Below, one piece after another: positions 1,314 through 20,617 of a stretch of 21,313 bases of DNA (position 1 is its first letter; the number at the start of each line of letters is the position of its first letter). The stretch covers positions 1 to 21,313 of IMG/VR virus record IMGVR_UViG_3300027847_000409. The stretch is one strand, 5' to 3'. The notes beneath the pieces are model-generated. The model worked only from the letters and a program-made list of their open reading frames with translations. It ran no database searches and was not told where the DNA came from. This stretch comes from a virus. Both the position numbers and the translations under genes were made by a program.

Positions 1314-3036
1314 TTTTCAAGACCTCCATTAATTGTTCTGGTGATTGCTGTTGTTGAGCAGGTGGAGCTCCAGCTTGATTTCCTTGACCTTGCGGCTGAG
1401 GTTGTTCACCCGTTGGCGTTGCACCAGGTACACCTTGTTGTTTTAGCATCTCCATGTTAATTATGTCTCCAGGATTCTCATCAAATGATTCAAATATCCT
1501 CTGAACAAATTTAGCTGGGTCTAAAGCCTGTGCAACTTGAGGCATGTTACCAATAACATTGATAATTTGCATCAACTTCTGAAAATTAGTCATCTTCAGA
1601 ACTTTGCCAGATATCCCTCTTACTGTTAGTGTAGAATCTTTTATTGCATCTACACGCTCATTGAAACTCATAGCTTTGAGTACCGTTAATGCTTCTGGGT
1701 TAGCGAGGGTTTTACTATAATCGAAGTGAGACGAATCATTCATATAAATTAACTCAGTGTAAAGTAACAACTCAAGTGTAGGTTCTATGATAGCTCGCTC
1801 TATTTCATTAGCAATATCTGCAAAAAACGCATTAGTGTCTTGCGACTTTTGCGACACCTCAGAAGCGGTGGGTCTTCCCTTAGATGTTGGTGCTCCTTGA
1901 AAGAACTCGTTTTGGAATGACCTATTTTGAATAAGCCTGTCAAGAGTAAATAAAAGGCTACTGGAATTAGGATTCACTGCATTATTATATACTTGATTTA
2001 TGGTTCCTGTTTGAGTAACTGGGTACAATCTACCTGGAACTACCGAGCCGAACAAGTGAGCCTTACCAGTTTCTATATTATTGGTAACAACTTCATACAC
2101 GCCTAGCGTGTTTAATGTAAATGCATCTAGTAGTAGGTTCATGCTCTCAACATAAGAACTTAACAAAGACCTCAACTTTGAAATATATCCTCTTCCGTAC
2201 TTGCCTTTAAGTACTTTCATTGGAAACCCCACAACGTATGGGAATTCTCCTTTTGGTAATATGTTTTTACCGTAATAGACGACATGCTCTTTGTTAGCAA
2301 TAACAAAGTGCACGTTTTCATCTAATATTTTTCCTTGGTCACTAGTCATACATCTACTATACACATATTCTAAATGAACTGTAGGTCTATACAATGCGTC
2401 ATTAGGGTCTTTCTGTTTGTGTAAGTTACGTATAACTTTCTCTGCATTCTTCCACTGATTTATTTCTGCCATAGATATAAAATCAGATAAGTCTACTTCT
2501 TTATTTTCTATAATGTACTGGTCACCATTAGGGTCTAGTCTCACACTAAAAGGGTCACATGTTTTAATTTCTGTTTTACCTACTATAGTATCTTCAGTAT
2601 CATAAGAGTTCTTTTTTTCATTATATGTAGGATAGCTTTCTTTATGATAGGTATAAGCTATCTTAGTAATATACGGGGATGTTAATAGTGCCATCTTAAG
2701 TGCATCCCCAAATATCATAGGGAACTTATTAGTTTTAAGTACTACTTCTACCAAACTACTTAACCCAGCTTTGATTGCAGGATTAGGATGTTCTATAGTA
2801 AAGTACTTATTATCACTAGACATCAGTATTCTTACAAAGAAGTTACTAAGTCTAACTACTAAGTTATCTACGATAGGGTCTTTAATCTTAGTTTGCCATG
2901 CTAGTTTATTATCAAATGAGTACTCATCCATGTAGAATTTCATGTTCTCATTCCAATCTTTACGTGTAGATACAAACCCATCTTCAGCTTCTTTAGCTAT
3001 AAATTGGTAGTATTTTAATACATCTGCCTCTCTCAT
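1291..3036 (-). CDS. Portal protein
   Basis: This 581-residue protein fits a phage portal, the ring at the special vertex through which DNA is packaged and ejected and to which the tail attaches. An N-terminal helical region (KYYQFIAKEAEDGF) leads into KIKDPIVDNLVVRLSNFFVRI. A mid-protein segment, GEFPYVVGFPMKVLKGKYGRGYISKLRSLL, then ALTNL-like helices are portal-like. The C-terminus is Gln/Pro/Gly-rich and low in complexity (ends KNVRQQQQ). The start ATG overlaps the terminase stop as ATGA, which suggests coupled translation, and AAGG lies eight bases upstream. Gene order terminase-portal-scaffold-capsid supports the call. Confidence 0.9.
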   Translation of the reverse strand: MREADVLKYYQFIAKEAEDGFVSTRKDWNENMKFYMDEYSFDNKLAWQTKIKDPIVDNLVVRLSNFFVRILMSSDNKYFTIEHPNPAIKAGLSSLVEVVLKTNKFPMIFGDALKMALLTSPYITKIAYTYHKESYPTYNEKKNSYDTEDTIVGKTEIKTCDPFSVRLDPNGDQYIIENKEVDLSDFISMAEINQWKNAEKVIRNLHKQKDPNDALYRPTVHLEYVYSRCMTSDQGKILDENVHFVIANKEHVVYYGKNILPKGEFPYVVGFPMKVLKGKYGRGYISKLRSLLSSYVESMNLLLDAFTLNTLGVYEVVTNNIETGKAHLFGSVVPGRLYPVTQTGTINQVYNNAVNPNSSSLLFTLDRLIQNRSFQNEFFQGAPTSKGRPTASEVSQKSQDTNAFFADIANEIERAIIEPTLELLLYTELIYMNDSSHFDYSKTLANPEALTVLKAMSFNERVDAIKDSTLTVRGISGKVLKMTNFQKLMQIINVIGNMPQVAQALDPAKFVQRIFESFDENPGDIINMEMLKQQGVPGATPTGEQPQPQGQGNQAGAPPAQQQQSPEQLMEVLKNVRQQQQ

Positions 3037-4553
3037 TGTAGTACCTTGTTCTCCTCACCAAATTTCATTTTATAGTAACTTGGTTCTTGCATCTCTACAG
3101 ATTCGTTGAGTGTCATTTTCTTAGCTATATAAAAACAACCTAGTTTAAAAGCATCTGAAAGATGCTCAAAGTAGTTGTCTTTCCTAGCAATACCAGTCTC
3201 TTCATGTCTAGTATACCCAGCCATAGTCTGAAGTAAATCACTGCAAGTCTTAGAATCAAACCTTACCATAGGTTCTCCTTTACTAAATTGTTTAAGTTCT
3301 TCATTAATTTGTGCATAGCTTGCTTCTTTCTTAACATATATAGTCTCTACGTTCTTTATCCCTTTATTATGAAATATATCAAGAGCACTGTTAGGAGATA
3401 CATCATATTTTCTATTAGCATCATGTGGGAGTATATCCATTGTTTCAGTAATTTTAGGTAATATTTCATTGCACAGTGCCTCTATCTCATCTATAAAATC
3501 TGTAAGTTGTATGTTATGTCCCATCCTGCTAAATAGGACATTCTTCCTACCATGGGCATCTATCTGAAAACCTACACATGCCGGATGTACAAACCCCATA
3601 TCCCAGCTTCTCCATAAAGTTCTTAGTGGGTCATACTGGTCTACTAAGTCATCCGCTACATGTAACTCACAGAAATCAGGATATACCAAAGCACCTTTAG
3701 GTTGCAGTTGGAATTTACCACCATCACTGAATCTCCAGTGCATAGCAGCTTTAGTAAATCTTTTCTTATACCTATCTATATCTGATTTCTCTAATGACAG
3801 GTTATCATATACATCAATAAAATGAAAGGATGTATCAGGGTCATCTATGTTATTCTTATATATATCTTGTACTATGTAATTCTGAGTACTACTTTCTACA
3901 ATAAAACTCATAGTCATCTTACCATTCTTTCTTAGTAATCTAGCTAAAATTTCATCATGCATTACATTACTTGGACACTCATCAAACCAGCAGAAATCAA
4001 TACCAGAAGCTTGTAAGTTCTGTGTCTTCATTTCACCTGATTTAAATTCAAGGAGTGTACCATCCCAGAATCTAACAAAGTCAATACATCTATTTTTACC
4101 CCAAGCTACTTTACCACCACGTCTCTCTATTGATTCAATACTAGGGAGGAGTCCAATATTATTAGGTGTATCCGTTGAGAACAAATGTACCTGACTTGAA
4201 GTTCTCTGGATATCAAATGAAGGACTGAACGCCCATATAATCCTATCTCCGTATTTGGGTGGACCTATATCATAACTTGGGTTCCAACCTATTATATTGT
4301 ATGCTGTCTTAGCAGCCGCCACATAACTCTTACCAGAACTATTATTACCATGAACATATACAGAGAAAGCGTCATCATCAAGAATAGGCTTTTGAGCAGG
4401 ATATGGCTTAAAGAAGAATAAGTTACCATACCAATACTGTAGCTCCTTGATTACTTTAGGGTCCAGATGTTTAAATTCTTCATTGGTCATATTATGGATT
4501 TTTCGCCATAACGCCAACATCTTCTCATCTTTCCACCACCAATCTCTTATCAT
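3033..4553 (-). CDS. terL: Terminase large subunit (packaging ATPase/nuclease)
   Basis: The product drives ATP-dependent DNA packaging and cuts the concatemer. The ATPase domain shows Walker A HGNNSSGKSYVAAA (G69 to S76 from the chosen start) and Walker B IDFCWFDE (D191, E192). The RNase H-like nuclease half shows WRSWDMGF with its Asp and ILPHDANRK with a second Asp. The frame opens four codons earlier at a TTG (4565). I place the start at the ATG at 4553 because GGAAGGA sits directly before it and the TTG has no ribosome binding site. The resulting length, 506 residues, is normal for the family. It is separated from the upstream lipoprotein gene by a hairpin-forming spacer. Confidence 0.95.
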   Translation of the reverse strand: MIRDWWWKDEKMLALWRKIHNMTNEEFKHLDPKVIKELQYWYGNLFFFKPYPAQKPILDDDAFSVYVHGNNSSGKSYVAAAKTAYNIIGWNPSYDIGPPKYGDRIIWAFSPSFDIQRTSSQVHLFSTDTPNNIGLLPSIESIERRGGKVAWGKNRCIDFVRFWDGTLLEFKSGEMKTQNLQASGIDFCWFDECPSNVMHDEILARLLRKNGKMTMSFIVESSTQNYIVQDIYKNNIDDPDTSFHFIDVYDNLSLEKSDIDRYKKRFTKAAMHWRFSDGGKFQLQPKGALVYPDFCELHVADDLVDQYDPLRTLWRSWDMGFVHPACVGFQIDAHGRKNVLFSRMGHNIQLTDFIDEIEALCNEILPKITETMDILPHDANRKYDVSPNSALDIFHNKGIKNVETIYVKKEASYAQINEELKQFSKGEPMVRFDSKTCSDLLQTMAGYTRHEETGIARKDNYFEHLSDAFKLGCFYIAKKMTLNESVEMQEPSYYKMKFGEENKVLQ

Positions 4554-4571
4554 GTTTCCTTCCAACTAGGC

Positions 4572-4616
4572 AGGTTCTATTGGCTGGTTCAGTCTCCTGA
4601 ACGTATGCCAGAACCT
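4572..4616 (-). other. Long imperfect hairpin between lipoprotein and terL genes
   Basis: Three nested inverted repeats share one axis. AGGTTCT (4572-4578) faces AGAACCT (4610-4616), GGC (4582-4584) faces GCC (4607-4609), and GTTCAG (4587-4592) faces CTGAAC (4597-4602) around the loop TCTC. That gives 16 possible base pairs with small bulges. It fills the gap between the lipoprotein stop and terL, ending ten bases before the terL ribosome binding site. There is no T-tract on either side, so a processing, stability or translational role is more likely than termination. Confidence 0.6.
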
Positions 4617-4845
4617 ACTTAGCGTTTAATAATTCCCACGATTGCTCATGTACCCAGATACAGGCTTTGTATGCTTGTTTCTGTGTAGCAAGGCATTGTA
4701 AATCTTCTTCAGATAAACAAGCTTCGTATATATTACACTCAGGTACTTCAGGACATGTAGGTCCACTATACCTGGAATAGTCATCTTTAGTAGCTGTCCA
4801 AAAATCTAGGTATGAACAGGCACTAACGCTTATTAAGATAATCAC
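4615..4845 (-). CDS. Small Cys-rich lipoprotein, o-spanin-like
   Basis: The frame reads into a hydrophobic stretch ending SVSAC, a lipobox, then about 66 mature residues with five further cysteines (PTCPEVPEC, EACLSEEDLQC, KACIW). It overlaps the 3' end of the coiled-coil gene 4823-5029 in another frame, the arrangement known for Rz/Rz1 spanin pairs in which the o-spanin is an outer-membrane lipoprotein. The coordinates use a GTG at 4845, the first canonical start. That start gives only nine residues before the Cys, with no positive charge and no ribosome binding site. Upstream codons in frame read (ATA)KKLVIIVIILISVSAC, with GGAG seven bases before the ATA at 4866, so the real protein probably begins there (83 residues). 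The spanin role is inferred; Pro content is lower than in classic Rz1. Confidence 0.68.
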   Translation of the reverse strand: MIILISVSACSYLDFWTATKDDYSRYSGPTCPEVPECNIYEACLSEEDLQCLATQKQAYKACIWVHEQSWELLNAK

Positions 4846-5029
4846 GATGATTACTAATTTCTTTATCTGCTTTCTCCAGAGCTAGTCTTTGTAGCTCACG
4901 TTGTCTTAATTTGAAACTAAGTTCCATTATTTTATTCTTTTGTTCTACATCTTTCTGATATTTAAATTGATTAAATATCTTACCAGCTATACCTAGAAAT
5001 GTCTTTAATAGAGTTAACCACATTATCAT
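4823..5029 (-). CDS. Small membrane-anchored coiled-coil protein, i-spanin-like
   Basis: This 68-residue protein has an N-terminal hydrophobic segment (MIMWLTLLKTFLGIAGKIF) followed by one long charged helix (KYQKDVEQKNKIMELSFKLRQRELQRLALEKADKEI). That matches an inner-membrane spanin subunit in outline, although it is shorter than the usual Rz, and the lipoprotein gene begins inside it in another frame. The start ATG shares one base with the preceding stop (TAATG), and AGGCGGA is the likely ribosome binding site. A second ATG two codons later is possible. A holin-related or structural role cannot be excluded. Confidence 0.62.
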   Translation of the reverse strand: MIMWLTLLKTFLGIAGKIFNQFKYQKDVEQKNKIMELSFKLRQRELQRLALEKADKEISNHRDYLNKR

Positions 5030-7083: not shown

Positions 7084-7105
7084 TATCTTCTTCGTAGTAA
7101 ACAAA

Positions 7106-7151
7106 AGTGTACGTACGGTCACAAGTGGTGAGCCGTCCAAGTACGTACACT
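7106..7151 (+). promoter_or_regulatory. Structured leader RNA element, copy 1
   Basis: A perfect 11-bp stem, AGTGTACGTAC (7106-7116) with GTACGTACACT (7141-7151), closes a 24-base core reading GGTCACAAGTGG then TGAGCCGTCCAA. The core can form an inner helix GG-UCAC/GUGA-G-CC with loop AAGUG. It lies 21 bases before the start codon of the gene at 7173, between the stem and whose ATG an AAGGAG box stands. A second copy at 7851 keeps the core and pairs the stem through compensatory changes. I do not recognise it as a known riboswitch class. Confidence 0.75.
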
Positions 7152-7172
7152 AAAAGGTTCAAGGAGATTAAC

Positions 7173-7463
7173 ATGAATAATAAATCTTATACTATCTACG
7201 AAGATGTAGACTGGCATAATAATGAGGATGACATGATGCCTCATATGCTTTCAATTAAACATGAACGAGGACATAACATCCTATCTCTCTATAGAGAGAT
7301 AGGATGGGACTGGTTCTCTGATGGTACTGTTAACTTCAAAGTCACCTTAGACCATCCTAAAAATAAAGACTGGAGCTACATGGTACACACCCCTTGTCAT
7401 ATTAAACTTGCAGAGTACTATGCCGGTGACTATCGTCCTGCTCACTACATGGTGACATTCTAA
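7173..7463 (+). CDS. Early protein of unknown function, 96 aa
   Basis: The protein begins MNNKSYTIYEDVDWHNNEDD and contains SIKHERGHNILSLYREIGWDWFSDGTVNF and HPKNKDWSYMVHTPCHIKLAEYYAGDY. It is soluble, rich in aromatic, His and Asp residues, and has no motif I recognise. The frame is open upstream through RNA element 1, but the ATG at 7173 is chosen because AAGGAG lies seven bases before it. Its TAA overlaps the next ATG (TAATG). Position first in the early block suggests a host-takeover or anti-defence function, which is inference only. Confidence 0.85.
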   Translation: MNNKSYTIYEDVDWHNNEDDMMPHMLSIKHERGHNILSLYREIGWDWFSDGTVNFKVTLDHPKNKDWSYMVHTPCHIKLAEYYAGDYRPAHYMVTF

Positions 7464-7744
7464 TGCTTTTAATTAAATTCATTATCCATAACCCATCATA
7501 TCCTAATGAGATAGCTGTCTATGACGGTTATCCTGACCATTCCCCTTCGTTCGTCCCGGATGAAGGACACGACTATCACGGAGAGTTCCCGATGCCGGAA
7601 TACAGCCAAGAGTTCTTAGTAGCAGGTAGAACTTGGCCGAACTTACTCATGGGAACAATAACATCTGATGACAGTGATGACCCTTGGTTATCAGGTTATA
7701 TGCAAGGAGAAGAGTTGAGTGTAGACTTTTATGACCATATCTAA
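7463..7744 (+). CDS. Early protein of unknown function, 93 aa
   Basis: The protein starts MLLIKFIIHNPSYPNEIAVYDGYPDH and is strongly acidic afterwards, with EGHDYHGEFPMPEYSQEF and TSDDSDDPW. No family is recognised. Its start overlaps the preceding stop and its stop overlaps the next start, both as TAATG, so three genes are stitched into one coupled unit. The acidic surface would suit a DNA mimic or protein-binding inhibitor, as many early phage proteins are, but nothing in the sequence proves that. Confidence 0.82.
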   Translation: MLLIKFIIHNPSYPNEIAVYDGYPDHSPSFVPDEGHDYHGEFPMPEYSQEFLVAGRTWPNLLMGTITSDDSDDPWLSGYMQGEELSVDFYDHI

Positions 7745-7821
7745 TGGATATGCTAGACCTGCAAGTACTCTGGATGTTCGCTATCATCTTGCTACTGTTG
7801 GTGTCATCATTTTTCAGGTAA
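7744..7821 (+). CDS. 25-aa membrane microprotein
   Basis: The frame reads MDMLDLQVLWMFAIILLLLV then SSFFR and stops. It starts on the TAATG overlap with the 93-residue gene and contains one hydrophobic segment (LWMFAIILLLLVSSFF), an acidic N-terminus and an Arg at the end, as expected of a single-span protein with N-out or N-in undecided. No separate ribosome binding site is needed if translation is coupled. Its function is unknown; small early membrane proteins of phages often act on host membranes. At this size the coding call is moderate. Confidence 0.58.
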   Translation: MDMLDLQVLWMFAIILLLLVSSFFR

Positions 7822-7850
7822 CACCCCAGTCCTATCTACCAGCAAACAAA

Positions 7851-7896
7851 AGTGTGTGTACGGTCACAAGTGGCGAACCGTCCAAGTACACACACT
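7851..7896 (+). promoter_or_regulatory. Structured leader RNA element, copy 2
   Basis: AGTGTGTGTAC (7851-7861) pairs perfectly with GTACACACACT (7886-7896) around a 24-base core, GGTCACAAGTGG then CGAACCGTCCAA, that differs from copy 1 at only two positions. Both copies are preceded by AACAAA. Relative to copy 1 the 5' arm has GT for AC and the 3' arm AC for GT, so two base pairs change while pairing is kept. The element ends 25 bases before the ATG of the gene at 7922, with AAGGAG between. Confidence 0.75.
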
Positions 7897-7921
7897 CAAG
7901 TAAGTAAAAAAGGAGTTTAAT

Positions 7922-8098
7922 ATGAGTTATAAAGAGATTAAAGACTTTACTTTAGTTCAAGATTGCAATGCTATCTTCGACTTAGCATGTCGTGGTCGTA
8001 TCAGTCATGAGCTAGCAGAGAATTTAGTACTGGAACTGCTGTACGCAGACACCAGTACTAGAAAATCGGGTGATGACCTACATCAACAAGGAGATTAA
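7922..8098 (+). CDS. Early protein of unknown function, 58 aa
   Basis: The product reads MSYKEIKDFTLVQDCNAIFD, continues LACRGRISHELAENLVLELL and ends DDLHQQGD. It looks like a small all-helical soluble protein. AAAAAGGAG stands before its ATG, which directly follows RNA element 2. Its last codons (AACAAGGAGATTAA) supply the ribosome binding site of the next gene, whose ATG begins two bases after this stop. I do not recognise a family. Confidence 0.8.
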   Translation: MSYKEIKDFTLVQDCNAIFDLACRGRISHELAENLVLELLYADTSTRKSGDDLHQQGD

Positions 8099-8099
8099 T

Positions 8100-8819
8100 A
8101 TGCCTAGTACCAAACATACATACGGAGATGTTACTGATGTGCTATCAATAGATAGTACAAAGCAACCTCTTCTACACTTTGCACAAGGATTCACACTACA
8201 TGACTCCGAGTGGACAGAACATGAGAATCTACAATTTCATGTATCCAAATCATACGCTCAATACAAAGATGGAGCTATGATTAAAGAATATAATGGTCGT
8301 ACATATAAGTATGATGTTGCCATTGTACCATCTAATGCCTATCTACAGGTACTACTTGATTCCATGCAAGGAATTTATTCTGTTAAGTTAGGAGTTAAGA
8401 ATAGAATCATAGATGGCTCTCGTAAATACGAGAAAGAGAATGCTAGTTTCATAGAAAACCTATCTAGACTTGATGCTAGTAACAATCCAATCAGAGGCTA
8501 TAGCATGAAACCGGCAACTGAACTTGAATTCATAGCTAACTATAAAGCTGTGAATCATATATCAGATGATGACTATGGTTTCATGCCTCTATATTTCATA
8601 GATTCTATCAACTCTCTGTTCTCTCGTAACCTTCAGAGATTACAGTGGGCTAAAACTACTAGTGATGACACCATAAAATCTAAACAATTGAATCAGTTTA
8701 TAGCTGACTTCATATACGTTTGGAATGAACCATTGATATCTTACACTGCTAATAAAGATAGTAAGATACTACCAACTAGAACTACCGTTAGTAACTCCGT
8801 TACAAACGTAGGATTCTAG
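8100..8819 (+). CDS. Early protein of unknown function, 239 aa
   Basis: This is the largest gene of the early block. It begins MPSTKHTYGDVTDVLSIDST and includes NGRTYKYDVAIVPSNAYLQVLLDSMQGIYSVKLGVKNR, a central Asn/Ser-rich part and a C-terminal helix LNQFIADFIYVWNEPLISY. There is no signal peptide, membrane segment or motif I recognise. The frame is open ten codons further upstream, but AAGGAG sits six bases before the ATG at 8100. It is the last gene before a strong terminator. Confidence 0.88.
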   Translation: MPSTKHTYGDVTDVLSIDSTKQPLLHFAQGFTLHDSEWTEHENLQFHVSKSYAQYKDGAMIKEYNGRTYKYDVAIVPSNAYLQVLLDSMQGIYSVKLGVKNRIIDGSRKYEKENASFIENLSRLDASNNPIRGYSMKPATELEFIANYKAVNHISDDDYGFMPLYFIDSINSLFSRNLQRLQWAKTTSDDTIKSKQLNQFIADFIYVWNEPLISYTANKDSKILPTRTTVSNSVTNVGF

Positions 8820-8826
8820 ACTATCC

Positions 8827-8871
8827 AGAGAGAGTAGGATTTATTCCTACTCTCTTTCCTATTTTTTTTTT
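8827..8871 (+). terminator. Intrinsic terminator ending the early block
   Basis: AGAGAGTAGGA (8829-8839) pairs perfectly with TCCTACTCTCT (8845-8855) around the loop TTTAT, and two more weak pairs extend the base. After six bases a run of ten T follows (8862-8871). It lies eight bases after the 239-residue gene. On the opposite strand the hairpin is preceded by A10, but no leftward gene ends there. Confidence 0.88.
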
Positions 8872-9308: not shown

Positions 9309-9509
9309 ATGGCAGAATATGTACAAGACCATGAAGACAAGGAAGAAGACATAGTTAATCCCCCACCTACACTAGAGGAGGACCAAGAAGAAGAGAATCC
9401 TGATACCCTATATAAAGACAATCAGAAACTCTTGAACGTAAGTATAAGAAATCTAAGAAAGCTACATGAATTCATGTTAGCGAGGATGGTGAAACGTGGA
9501 CGTAAATAA
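9309..9509 (+). CDS. Acidic small protein, 66 aa
   Basis: The N-terminal half is very acidic (MAEYVQDHEDKEEDIVNPPPTLEEDQEEENPD) and the C-terminal half is basic and helical (LRKLHEFMLARMVKRGRK). AGGAGG precedes the ATG at 9309. The end overlaps the AAA+ ATPase gene by 14 bases. The charge split suggests an adaptor or regulator that binds a partner through one half, which is speculative. No family is recognised. Confidence 0.8.
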   Translation: MAEYVQDHEDKEEDIVNPPPTLEEDQEEENPDTLYKDNQKLLNVSIRNLRKLHEFMLARMVKRGRK

Positions 9510-10572
9510 AGAGATAGCACTCGAAGCCTGTAAAGTACAGCAAGACATAGGATTGCTGGACTCTAAGATTCCAGTGCTAGTAGGGAAGACAAGTTCAGGC
9601 AAGACATACTGGATACAACATGAGCTAGCTGACAAGCTAGAGCTACCTGTAGTTAAGATACTACTACAGAATGAACAAGCAGATGAGGTACTAGGTTATC
9701 CTAAGTTCATGGGTAATGACCAACTAGAGTTTCTTAAGCCAGCATGGTGGACGGATACACCTAGTATCTTCTTCTTTGATGAGCTTGATAAATCAAGAGA
9801 TGAGTTACATGCATCTATACTCACTCTATTACGTGAAGGTACCATACGTGGACGTGCCCTACCTAAGGGTAGTGTTATCATCTGTGCTATGAATGAGTCC
9901 GACTATTTATCTGACCCATTAAAAGCTAGATGTTTATTCTTACCCTTTGAGTATGGTCAACGTGGTATAGAAGACAGGACACTAACACAAGTAAGTGATT
10001 ACTTACAATCCTTTGTACTACCAGTTGAGTTACCTACTCAAGCTATAGTACCAGAGAATCTACACTACTTAGATAAGTACCAGAGTATAGACCCTAACAT
10101 ACTGAGTAATAATAATAAGCTACGCTCATTATGTTATGGCTTGTTCCCGCCTAAGAATGTACTCCCTATCATGGGTATACTATCTAAGCTAACAGACCTA
10201 GACTATGTCCAGTTAATAAAGGATGACAAGCTATTGGATACGTTCATTAAATCTATAAGTACTGTGCATGATGGGCATAGACATTTCATAGAGTTCCTTA
10301 AAGTATGGGATGATGACCAGAGTACACGTCAACTGGATGAGTTAGTTACTAAGTTCAGTGATAGTAATGCAGAAGACCTAGTAAAATTCTATGAGCTATG
10401 TCATGATGCCTGGCTAGATGACATACCTAACATAGGTAATCATGTATTCAATAAGACAGCAGTAAAAAGTCTAGGAGAACACATGAGATATATACTTAGA
10501 GATTTATCTGAAGATGTAGATACAAAACTACAAGAGTCCTCTATCTCTTGGGATGAAAAAGATGCAAAGTAA
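9496..10572 (+). CDS. MoxR-type AAA+ ATPase
   Basis: The 358-residue protein carries Walker A GKTSSGKT (G30-T37), Walker B IFFFDELDKS (D95, E96), a sensor-1 Asn in IICAMNESD (N133) and an Arg-containing LKARCLFLPF (R145), in the compact order of MoxR/CbbQ-like AAA+ proteins. A C-terminal helical region follows. Such ATPases act with VWA-domain partners in remodelling or metal-cofactor insertion; a VWA protein lies two genes downstream. The start is a GTG at 9496 inside the end of the previous gene with GAGGATGG upstream, and no better start exists before the P-loop. The target substrate in phage infection is unknown. Confidence 0.88.
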   Translation: MDVNKEIALEACKVQQDIGLLDSKIPVLVGKTSSGKTYWIQHELADKLELPVVKILLQNEQADEVLGYPKFMGNDQLEFLKPAWWTDTPSIFFFDELDKSRDELHASILTLLREGTIRGRALPKGSVIICAMNESDYLSDPLKARCLFLPFEYGQRGIEDRTLTQVSDYLQSFVLPVELPTQAIVPENLHYLDKYQSIDPNILSNNNKLRSLCYGLFPPKNVLPIMGILSKLTDLDYVQLIKDDKLLDTFIKSISTVHDGHRHFIEFLKVWDDDQSTRQLDELVTKFSDSNAEDLVKFYELCHDAWLDDIPNIGNHVFNKTAVKSLGEHMRYILRDLSEDVDTKLQESSISWDEKDAK

Positions 10573-11389
10573 TCCGGGGTATAATAACCTACACTATGCA
10601 GGTATATGTCCTATAGTTACACATGAGGAGACAGGTGTATCTTTTCCTGTTGTTACTCTATCTCAATACAATAAACTTATGTATGCTAGTGACATACCAG
10701 GTAATTGTATAAACCTAAAGCATCCTGACTTCAACTATGATATGCCTATATCTAAGCATGAGCATGTCAAGAAGACAGATGTTCAGTGTATAGTAGGTGC
10801 AAGAATAATGACATCTGCTAATTATAGTAACTACACTCATCTAAATATACATAACCTACAACAAACATATTACTGGGATTATAAAGAGAATATGATACCT
10901 AGTAATATAGGTTATGTACGACACCCTAATGAGACACTAACAATGAACTGGAAGACAAGGAATAATCGAGATTTTATATATCGTGAGAAGGGATACAAAC
11001 ATCTATCAGTCATGTATATTACACGCAAGAATGGCTTGATTAATCATGATATATATTTCAGATGGTGCCATGAAACTGGCTTACCTTTTCCAGAAGATAT
11101 GGTACATACTAGTGAAGACCTAGACGTTGCTCTATCTACCATCAAGGGCATAGGCCATAGCATGAAGAGTAGCTACTCAGCTCTAGGTCTTATAGATAGT
11201 ATACGTAAGAAGAAGGTATACCCTTGGGCTATACCTTTTATCTCTGGTACCAGAAAGAATATCAAGAAGGAAGACATTAAAGTATTTAGCAGGATGTCTA
11301 AATCCTCAGCTAAAAGGCCATGGACTATCATGACCTACACTAAAAGATTAGACAGGAGGTTAAAACGTGCAAGAAATAGACATAAATAA
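10553..11389 (+). CDS. Protein of unknown function between AAA+ and VWA genes, 278 aa
   Basis: No family is recognised. The N-terminal part contains LHYAGICPIVTHEETGVSFPVVTLSQYNKLM, the middle is rich in Asn, Tyr and His, and the C-terminus is basic (SAKRPWTIMTYTKRLDRRLKRARNRHK), which could bind nucleic acid. Its start overlaps the AAA+ gene by 20 bases; the ATG at 10562, three codons in, is an alternative start. It also overlaps the VWA gene at its 3' end, so all three are probably translated together and may form one system. Confidence 0.85.
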   Translation: MKKMQSNPGYNNLHYAGICPIVTHEETGVSFPVVTLSQYNKLMYASDIPGNCINLKHPDFNYDMPISKHEHVKKTDVQCIVGARIMTSANYSNYTHLNIHNLQQTYYWDYKENMIPSNIGYVRHPNETLTMNWKTRNNRDFIYREKGYKHLSVMYITRKNGLINHDIYFRWCHETGLPFPEDMVHTSEDLDVALSTIKGIGHSMKSSYSALGLIDSIRKKKVYPWAIPFISGTRKNIKKEDIKVFSRMSKSSAKRPWTIMTYTKRLDRRLKRARNRHK

Positions 11390-12563
11390 ATACGTTACCT
11401 TTGGTAAAGAAGATGCATGGATAAGCTATCAGTTAGACAGGTGTAAAATTCTTACTGATGATACAACTAGTGCTCCGGCCTACTGTTACGCAGAGCATGG
11501 AGTATTCTGTATCTTTATAGCTAAAGATTATATAGTAAAAGGAGGTAAGGTACTAGTTGAGTTACTTAAACATGAGCTAGCTCACGGTTACTTCGGGCAC
11601 TTGAGGTACATGAAGGGTAGAGAGAAGCATAAACAATTACTTAACGTATTGTTTGACTGCTCTATACATGTGAATGCAGCTGATGCTACTACTCTTAGTA
11701 CCATTGGTGATATCTGTACCTATGACTCAATTAAGTTACCTATCCTTCCTCCTCTCGTACTATATGAGAAGCTTAAAAAGGAAATGGATAACAAGACTCT
11801 TGATATGTTCTTAGATAATAATCTTTCTGATGTACTATGGAAACAGAAAGCTATCAGTGAACTAGAGAATCAAGTTATACATAGGACAATGGATGAAGGG
11901 ATACAAGAGGCTGAGCGTGATGGTCATGTAGCTCCGGATAGCTATGGTTCGGGCCCGGGTACTGGCTCTAACCTAGGTACTGACATAGATGTACTGAAAG
12001 AAGCTACTCCTGATTGGATACACCAACTCAAGAAGTTTCTTCTTAATAGTATAGCAAAGCATAAGAGTCCTAGTTGGCACAGAGAGGCAAGGAATCTTAC
12101 TCATCCTGATATACTCAAGAGAGGCTATGCTCCTAGTACGTCTAAAGGTAGATGCCTGTTTGCTATAGATTGTTCATGGTCTATGAACCCTAGGTATGTA
12201 TCTCAGGCTGTATCTGTACTACTACATTGTACTGAGCATGAGGATATAGAAGGTTCAGCTGTGTTCTTTGATAGTAAGGTATCAAAGAGAGTATCTCTGA
12301 GAAATAAAGCAGAGATAATAACCCTAGCTCAAGAACGAGGAGGTGGTACTAGCTTACAACCTGTAATAGATTATGCTAGACCTGATGACCTAGTTGTATT
12401 CTATACTGATGGATGGTTTGATAGGTGTGACTCTTCTAGATTACAGAGACCACCTATCTGTGTCATCACTCCCAATGGTACTACCTCTACTGTAGAACGT
12501 AGTATGCCTGACTGGAAGATAATACAAATTGAAAATGAAACTGACTGGACTGAACCAGTATGA
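11367..12563 (+). CDS. HExxH metallopeptidase-like / VWA-domain protein
   Basis: The N-terminal domain has a zinc-peptidase signature HELAHGYFGH (H69, E70, H73, H78) followed by LFDCSIHVNAAD, the layout of the DUF2201 N-terminal domain. The C-terminal domain is von Willebrand A-like with a full MIDAS: DCSWS (D268, S270, S272), GGGTS (T328) and YTDG (D348). A Gly/Ser-rich linker (DSYGSGPGTGSNLG) lies between. MoxR ATPases are commonly encoded beside such proteins, as here. The start is a GTG with AGGAGGT seven bases upstream. Whether peptidase activity is retained cannot be told, but the motif is intact. Confidence 0.85.
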   Translation: MQEIDINKYVTFGKEDAWISYQLDRCKILTDDTTSAPAYCYAEHGVFCIFIAKDYIVKGGKVLVELLKHELAHGYFGHLRYMKGREKHKQLLNVLFDCSIHVNAADATTLSTIGDICTYDSIKLPILPPLVLYEKLKKEMDNKTLDMFLDNNLSDVLWKQKAISELENQVIHRTMDEGIQEAERDGHVAPDSYGSGPGTGSNLGTDIDVLKEATPDWIHQLKKFLLNSIAKHKSPSWHREARNLTHPDILKRGYAPSTSKGRCLFAIDCSWSMNPRYVSQAVSVLLHCTEHEDIEGSAVFFDSKVSKRVSLRNKAEIITLAQERGGGTSLQPVIDYARPDDLVVFYTDGWFDRCDSSRLQRPPICVITPNGTTSTVERSMPDWKIIQIENETDWTEPV

Positions 12564-20434: not shown

Positions 20435-20617
20435 CTACTTTAAAAGTTTCTTAGCTTCAGTCATAAACTCAGTCCATTCTTCTGGAGTAACTTTATCATC
20501 AGCCCACATCTCAGTGAAAACTTCTATAGTCTTCTTGAGTTGTGCGTATTTGTTCTTAAATAAATAACCAGCTACTGATAGTATGCCGGTTAGTATCCAA
20601 GGAATATATTCACTCAT
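20435..20617 (-). CDS. Small holin-like membrane protein, 60 aa
   Basis: The sequence MSEYIPWILTGILSVAGYLF holds a single membrane span; KNKYAQLKKTIEVFTEMWADDKVTPEEWTEFMTEAKKLLK is a charged helix-turn-helix tail. Size, one span and a charged C-terminus fit a small (class III-type) holin, and the next two genes are also membrane proteins. AGGAGGT lies seven bases before the ATG. The holin role is inference from these features and the neighbours. Confidence 0.72.
   Translation of the reverse strand: MSEYIPWILTGILSVAGYLFKNKYAQLKKTIEVFTEMWADDKVTPEEWTEFMTEAKKLLK

Follow-up and report, generated by a model that had tools for sequence, protein, structure and literature searches.

Introduction

The early operon in the genome of phage T7 carries five RNase III hairpins (R0.3, R0.5, R0.7, R1 and R1.1), which are related to each other, are located mostly near ribosome sites and show compensated changes at 3 of 10 pairs. 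T7 also has late RNase III sites, whereas in the phages analyzed here the enrichment of hairpins is found in early leaders only. Hairpins that are repeated in early transcripts, alike within one phage and different between phages, are also known from the nut sites (boxB) of lambdoid phages and the put sites of HK022; boxB is a 5-bp hairpin adjoining boxA and put consists of two stem-loops. In Escherichia coli, 5' stem-loops of the ompA type place a stable stem shortly upstream of an open ribosome site, and it has been described that 5' hairpins block RNase E (PMC5371410). Template switching, finally, is a mutational process that has been reported to create and maintain RNA hairpins (Monttinen and Loytynoja, 2022; PMC8794818), with stems that are perfect and compensated changes that span several bases.

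Here, we analyzed a window of 21,313 nucleotides (IMG/VR record IMGVR_UViG_3300027847_000409) from an uncultured phage, which encodes a family-A DNA polymerase, a DnaB-like helicase, an AAA+ ATPase, a VWA protein and a terminase and to which cultured phages are only remotely similar. As in T7, several related hairpins per early operon are located just upstream of ribosome sites, the stems are predicted to be irregular or interrupted, and the changes between copies are compensated (two copies in the window, three in the related phage L040); early transcription is likely performed by the host polymerase in both phages. In contrast to T7, the lower stem in the window is longer and has no G-U pairs, which are used by the T7 stems, and the loops differ between related phages; the likeness to T7 is one of layout. 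The hairpins share with the ompA type the stable stem shortly upstream of an open ribosome site, but they are also found inside a presumably polycistronic message and processing would therefore be needed to place them at a 5' end. They resemble nut and put in being repeated in early transcripts, alike within one phage and different between phages. Judged by layout, however, neither arrangement is seen, and the elements of the window adjoin ribosome sites. The likeness to hairpins made by template switching (PMC8794818) lies in the perfect stems and the multi-base compensated changes, but it concerns mutational origin and not function, and the early-leader enrichment and strand bias reported below need selection as well.

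By this comparison, the closest precedent is the RNase III hairpin set of T7 and not a riboswitch. We assign a probability of roughly 0.5 to the reading that the elements are early-mRNA leader hairpins of a lineage-wide set, which would mature or stabilize early mRNA in the way the RNase III hairpins of T7 do.

Two leader hairpins with compensated stems

The preliminary description of the locus had reported two 46-nt hairpins with 11-bp stems and 24-nt cores differing at two positions, each preceded by AACAAA and followed by an AAGGAG box with the start codons at 7173 and 7922. Both hairpins and their surroundings are confirmed at these coordinates (Table 1). They are part of a 59-nt repeat unit (7096-7154 and 7841-7899, 86% identity), which takes in the 5' flank, with AAACAAA 5' of both hairpins; the AAGGAG box and ATG follow 3' of both. 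All 11 pairs of either lower stem are Watson-Crick pairs without G-U. Between copy 1 and copy 2 two adjacent pairs differ, A-U being replaced by G-C and C-G by U-A, and both are Watson-Crick pairs in both copies, as had been noted. The cores are identical at 22 of 24 positions (the differences are T/C and G/A), and within the genome the cores are less variable than the stems.

In copy 1, the 11-bp lower stem is followed by an unpaired stretch on the 3' side and a short upper helix. In copy 2 an A-C mismatch interrupts the inner helix (UCAC/GUGA) on the sense strand, and the upper part is predicted to be unlike in the two copies. The fold z-scores against shuffled sequences are -3.9 for copy 1 and -2.3 for copy 2. 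Patterns made from the core and from the 5' arm (up to 3 mismatches allowed) occur twice each in the window, at a shuffle expectation of 0.00 and 0.04, respectively. The hairpins end 22 nt (copy 1) and 26 nt (copy 2) before the start codon, and in the predicted main fold of both leaders the Shine-Dalgarno sequence and the AUG are unpaired.

Given 8 differences in 59 nt, the chance that all 11 pairs stay Watson-Crick and at least two double changes occur is p ~2e-4 for uniform changes and p ~2e-3 if only transitions are considered. The compensated pairs are real, but the "classical covariation signature" seen in them by the preliminary description is weaker than claimed, since a single template switch is able to alter two neighboring pairs at once (PMC8794818). 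A coding explanation of the element was rejected: both core changes would be synonymous in one frame, but this frame lacks a start codon upstream of copy 1.

A third leader hairpin (Table 1) shows the same layout as copies 1 and 2 in a different sequence. It comprises 9 perfect base pairs, or 11 bp when folded, a 2/3 internal loop, a 4-bp upper helix and a 5-nt loop, and its fold z-score is -6.3.

Other features of the window were observed near the hairpins or in the replication operon. A 30-nt perfect palindrome, CATCCTATCTCTCTATAGAGAGATAGGATG, is located at 7277-7306 inside the early gene 7173-7463. Between the two hairpins an unlisted frame of 25 codons at 7744-7821, MDMLDLQVLWMFAIILLLLVSSFFR, overlaps the preceding stop codon (TAATG) and, to judge from its sequence, possibly encodes a small membrane peptide. 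The AAA+ ATPase and VWA-domain genes are located near each other in the replication operon (9496-12563).

Table 1. Coordinates of the leader hairpins and adjacent features in the window.
Feature	Position	Strand	Description
5' flank of copy 1	7096-7105	+	AGTAAACAAA; common to both copies
Leader hairpin, copy 1	7106-7151	+	46 nt; 11-bp lower stem, 7106-7116 with 7141-7151
Core of copy 1			24 nt, GGTCACAAGTGGTGAGCCGTCCAA; short upper helix and 3'-side unpaired stretch
Shine-Dalgarno AAGGAG (7161-7166) and ATG (7173)	7161-7175	+	early gene 1; predicted unpaired beside hairpin
Early gene 1	7173-7463	+	96 aa; without family match
5' flank of copy 2	7841-7850		AGCAAACAAA; common to both copies
Leader hairpin, copy 2	7851-7896	+	46 nt; lower stem also 11 bp, two neighboring pairs changed with compensation
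Core of copy 2			24 nt, GGTCACAAGTGGCGAACCGTCCAA
Shine-Dalgarno AAGGAG (7910-7915) and ATG (7922)	7910-7924	+	second served gene
Early gene	7922-8098	+	58 aa; without family match
Third leader hairpin	8025-8060	+	within 3' end of gene 7922-8098, ~40 nt before ATG 8100
Early gene	8100-8819	+	239 aa; without family match
Hairpin followed by T run	8829-8855	+	likely intrinsic terminator of the early operon

The core sequence is private to one genome pair

A search of Rfam gave no match to either hairpin. Among viral contigs, the core pattern is confined to the window and one other contig, IMGVR_UViG_3300009173_001158, whose identity to the window is 99.8% over 10 kb. Looser core patterns yielded otherwise only armless chance matches in viral contigs, and the core pattern was absent from the bacterial genomes searched. 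A covariance model run over 54 loci matched only the window and L001, and the next matches had E ~9. A DNA similarity search of phage records gave no match over the region, and chance-level matches only for the element alone. Relatives sought through the early proteins were limited to the near-identical contig, and a terminase search of bacterial genomes found none. As these searches returned no orthologue of intermediate distance, the covariation evidence consists of two adjacent pairs in two sequences, possibly changed in one mutational event, plus analogues in relatives. The riboswitch-like class upstream of varied genes that had been envisaged does not match this distribution: the core is private to one near-identical genome pair and relatives have other sequences in its place. 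The element is a sequence-private form of a known kind, the early-phage leader hairpin.

Different hairpins occupy the same places in related phages

Relatives of the phage were recruited via the terminase, the ATPase and a small terminase-side protein. Their layout is that of the window, with structural genes leftward and a divergent early region that opens the rightward operon. The window core is missing from their early leaders, and several have other long hairpins at the same places. In L040, three hairpins with a common 12-nt loop are each located upstream of an AAGGAG box and an early gene. The loop reads CUCACGUAGUGA in two copies and CUCAUGUAAUGA in one (also written CTCACGTAGTGA, CTCACGTAGTGA and CTCATGTAATGA). 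The arms differ between the copies yet are complementary, with compensated changes and with base pairs gained and lost, and in one copy a compensated C-G to U-A change adjoins the loop. A scan of viral contigs revealed this combination in no other genome; further contigs matching the loop together with a Shine-Dalgarno sequence were judged chance matches because they lack long arms. In L012, stems of 11-15 bp precede several early genes, and their loops are mostly not in common. G001 and G003 share 98% identity in the last leader hairpin, compared with 62% in its 5' flank and 76% in the following gene. Since the loops of the window and of L040 differ, a single conserved sequence reader across the lineage is excluded.

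Two observations on these genomes are added. In the record IMGVR_UViG_3300030060_002972 (G002, 83.7 kb), two phage genomes that are related but not the same are arranged in tandem, with two terminases, two polymerases and two giant proteins; the record is perhaps a chimeric assembly. The giant virion-side protein (L067, 1385-9427, in G001, and its counterparts) has 1823-2680 aa, is fast evolving and has almost no family match.

The main rival to processing or stabilization is that a phage (or host) protein binds the hairpin RNA specifically, either in translational autoregulation or in antitermination of the nut/put type, the loop being matched to the protein of each phage. We regard this as somewhat unlikely. 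It would account for loops that are alike within a genome and different between genomes (22 of 24 core positions in the window; one 12-nt loop in the three L040 copies), for the compensated change next to the L040 loop and for cores that vary less than stems. However, no candidate RNA-binding protein was recognized among the early genes, the Shine-Dalgarno sequence is not covered by the hairpin, and the hairpins of L012 are mostly without common loops. Furthermore, an equal likeness within one genome is also produced by recent duplication, and the RNase III sites of T7 share sequence within their genome, too.

Early leaders and early mRNAs are enriched in structure

To quantify the enrichment, leaders of the window and five relatives were scanned for perfect stems of 9 bp or longer within 100 nt before the start codon. 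Such a stem is present in 14 of 25 early leaders (56%) but only in 5 of 143 other leaders (3.5%), and in shuffled sequences the proportions are 0.8% and 0.4%, respectively. The Fisher p-value of ~4e-10 is optimistic, since G001 and G003 are close relatives, and the early-leader count includes likely terminators such as the one at 8829-8855; despite this the contrast is large.

Sliding-window folding of the sense strand resulted in a z-score of -1.9 in early regions compared with about -0.6 elsewhere. In the early tiles, which overlap, the sense strand is more stable than the antisense strand (p ~1e-4). Such a difference is expected if selection acts on the RNA, where G-U pairs can be used, but not if the structures are DNA palindromes, which are strand-symmetric. 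Codon shuffles that keep protein and codons fixed gave a mean z of -3.6 for early genes and -2.0 for the others (p ~6e-4); the gene 8100-8819 reaches -7.5 on its sense strand, compared with -1.4 on the antisense strand. The claim of structured, RNA-level leader elements before early genes is supported by the positions, the compensated changes, the early-leader enrichment, the sense bias and the hairpin conserved between G001 and G003. Among the control phages, T7 has no structure excess in its early region (-0.1), HTVC010P is strongly structured around the capsid gene and P-SSP7 is moderately structured throughout; therefore, densely structured mRNA also occurs outside this lineage.

Outside the early region, a 60-aa gene of the window (20435-20617, minus strand) also has a strongly structured mRNA (z -7.4). 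In L012, a 185-aa early gene on the minus strand (~2948-3502, within 2000-5000) is packed with perfect short hairpins in its coding sequence: hairpins of 7 bp or more number 13 in 1 kb where 0.7 are expected, the MFE z-score against codon shuffles is -9.5, and the tiles are 68% more stable. This gene recalls the coding palindromes of nematomorph mitochondria (PMC6649704).

Mutational origin, DNA elements and RNA switches

The perfect arms could also have been made or corrected by template-switch (quasipalindrome) mutation of the DNA, in which case a compensated change is a single event and RNA selection is unneeded. This is in line with the adjacency of the two changed pairs without a visible G-U intermediate, with the compensated gains and losses of base pairs in L040 and with the occurrence of a 30-nt perfect palindrome inside a gene of the window. 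But a strand-blind, genome-wide process predicts neither the concentration in early leaders (56% versus 3.5%) nor the sense bias, and it accounts for the origin of hairpins, not for their retention. Template switching may be the origin of the perfect arms, but as an explanation that dispenses with RNA selection we consider it quite improbable.

Inverted repeats upstream of genes could furthermore be DNA elements, that is, a two-fold symmetric operator or, given the giant virion-side protein (1823-2680 aa) found in relatives, N4-like hairpin promoters for a virion RNA polymerase. Both possibilities are decidedly doubtful. No single operator would fit the arms, which vary both inside a genome and from one genome to another, and the structure is sense-biased. 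The giant protein has no match to PDB, Pfam or RNA polymerase families and no conserved polymerase motifs, and a search for T7-type polymerases in the relatives gave no match, although the positive control of this search was also silent. Moreover, the promoter hairpins of N4 are shorter than the stems of 11-14 bp plus upper helix found here.

A riboswitch, or another RNA switch with two exclusive folds, had been suggested by the repetition of the start of the 5' arm in the loop AAGUG, which could pair with the 3' arm instead, and is very unlikely, as the alternative fold is 11-13 kcal/mol weaker (-7.8 versus -20.5 kcal/mol in copy 1, -5.7 versus -17.1 in copy 2), the main fold leaves the Shine-Dalgarno sequence accessible, an expression platform was not seen, Rfam gave no match and the core was not found outside the window phage.

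A possible role in early mRNA maturation

Position, repetition within the genome, compensated stems and the helix predicted to be interrupted, all common to T7, favor processing or stabilization of early mRNA. While structure, position, early-leader enrichment, compensated changes and strand bias are observed, we infer transcription of the region in a single operon, recognition of the hairpins by RNase III and an effect on processing or stability. The hairpins would then be located in the 5' leaders of the cistrons of one early operon. Host RNase III would cut their long stem, which is interrupted by an asymmetric internal loop or bulge, or the stem would remain and protect the 5' end, and each cistron would be left with a clean, open ribosome-binding site. 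A point against maturation by RNase III is that the lower stem of 11 bp and the short upper helix, in part mismatched, are together rather short for a substrate of this enzyme. Furthermore, RNase III needs no common core; the identity of the cores at 22 of 24 positions would therefore stem from a recent duplication or else indicate that the sequence is recognized.

A more far-reaching possibility, which seems rather improbable to us, is a private, self-renewing hairpin code: each phage would duplicate its own hairpin and preserve the loop to suit an RNA-binding regulator of its own, with stems that change by template switching and early coding sequences that are padded with hairpins. If true, this would amount to a novel form of early-gene control or RNA defense.

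If maturation or stabilization by leader hairpins is right, early-mRNA maturation of the T7 kind evolved or persists in an unrelated lineage of uncultured phages. The hairpins would be renewed within each genome, which would make them a clear case for how perfect RNA stems arise and persist. Furthermore, it would show that early phage mRNA can be selected for dense structure of the sense strand, to an extreme degree in one relative, and this structure may bear on the resistance to host RNases.
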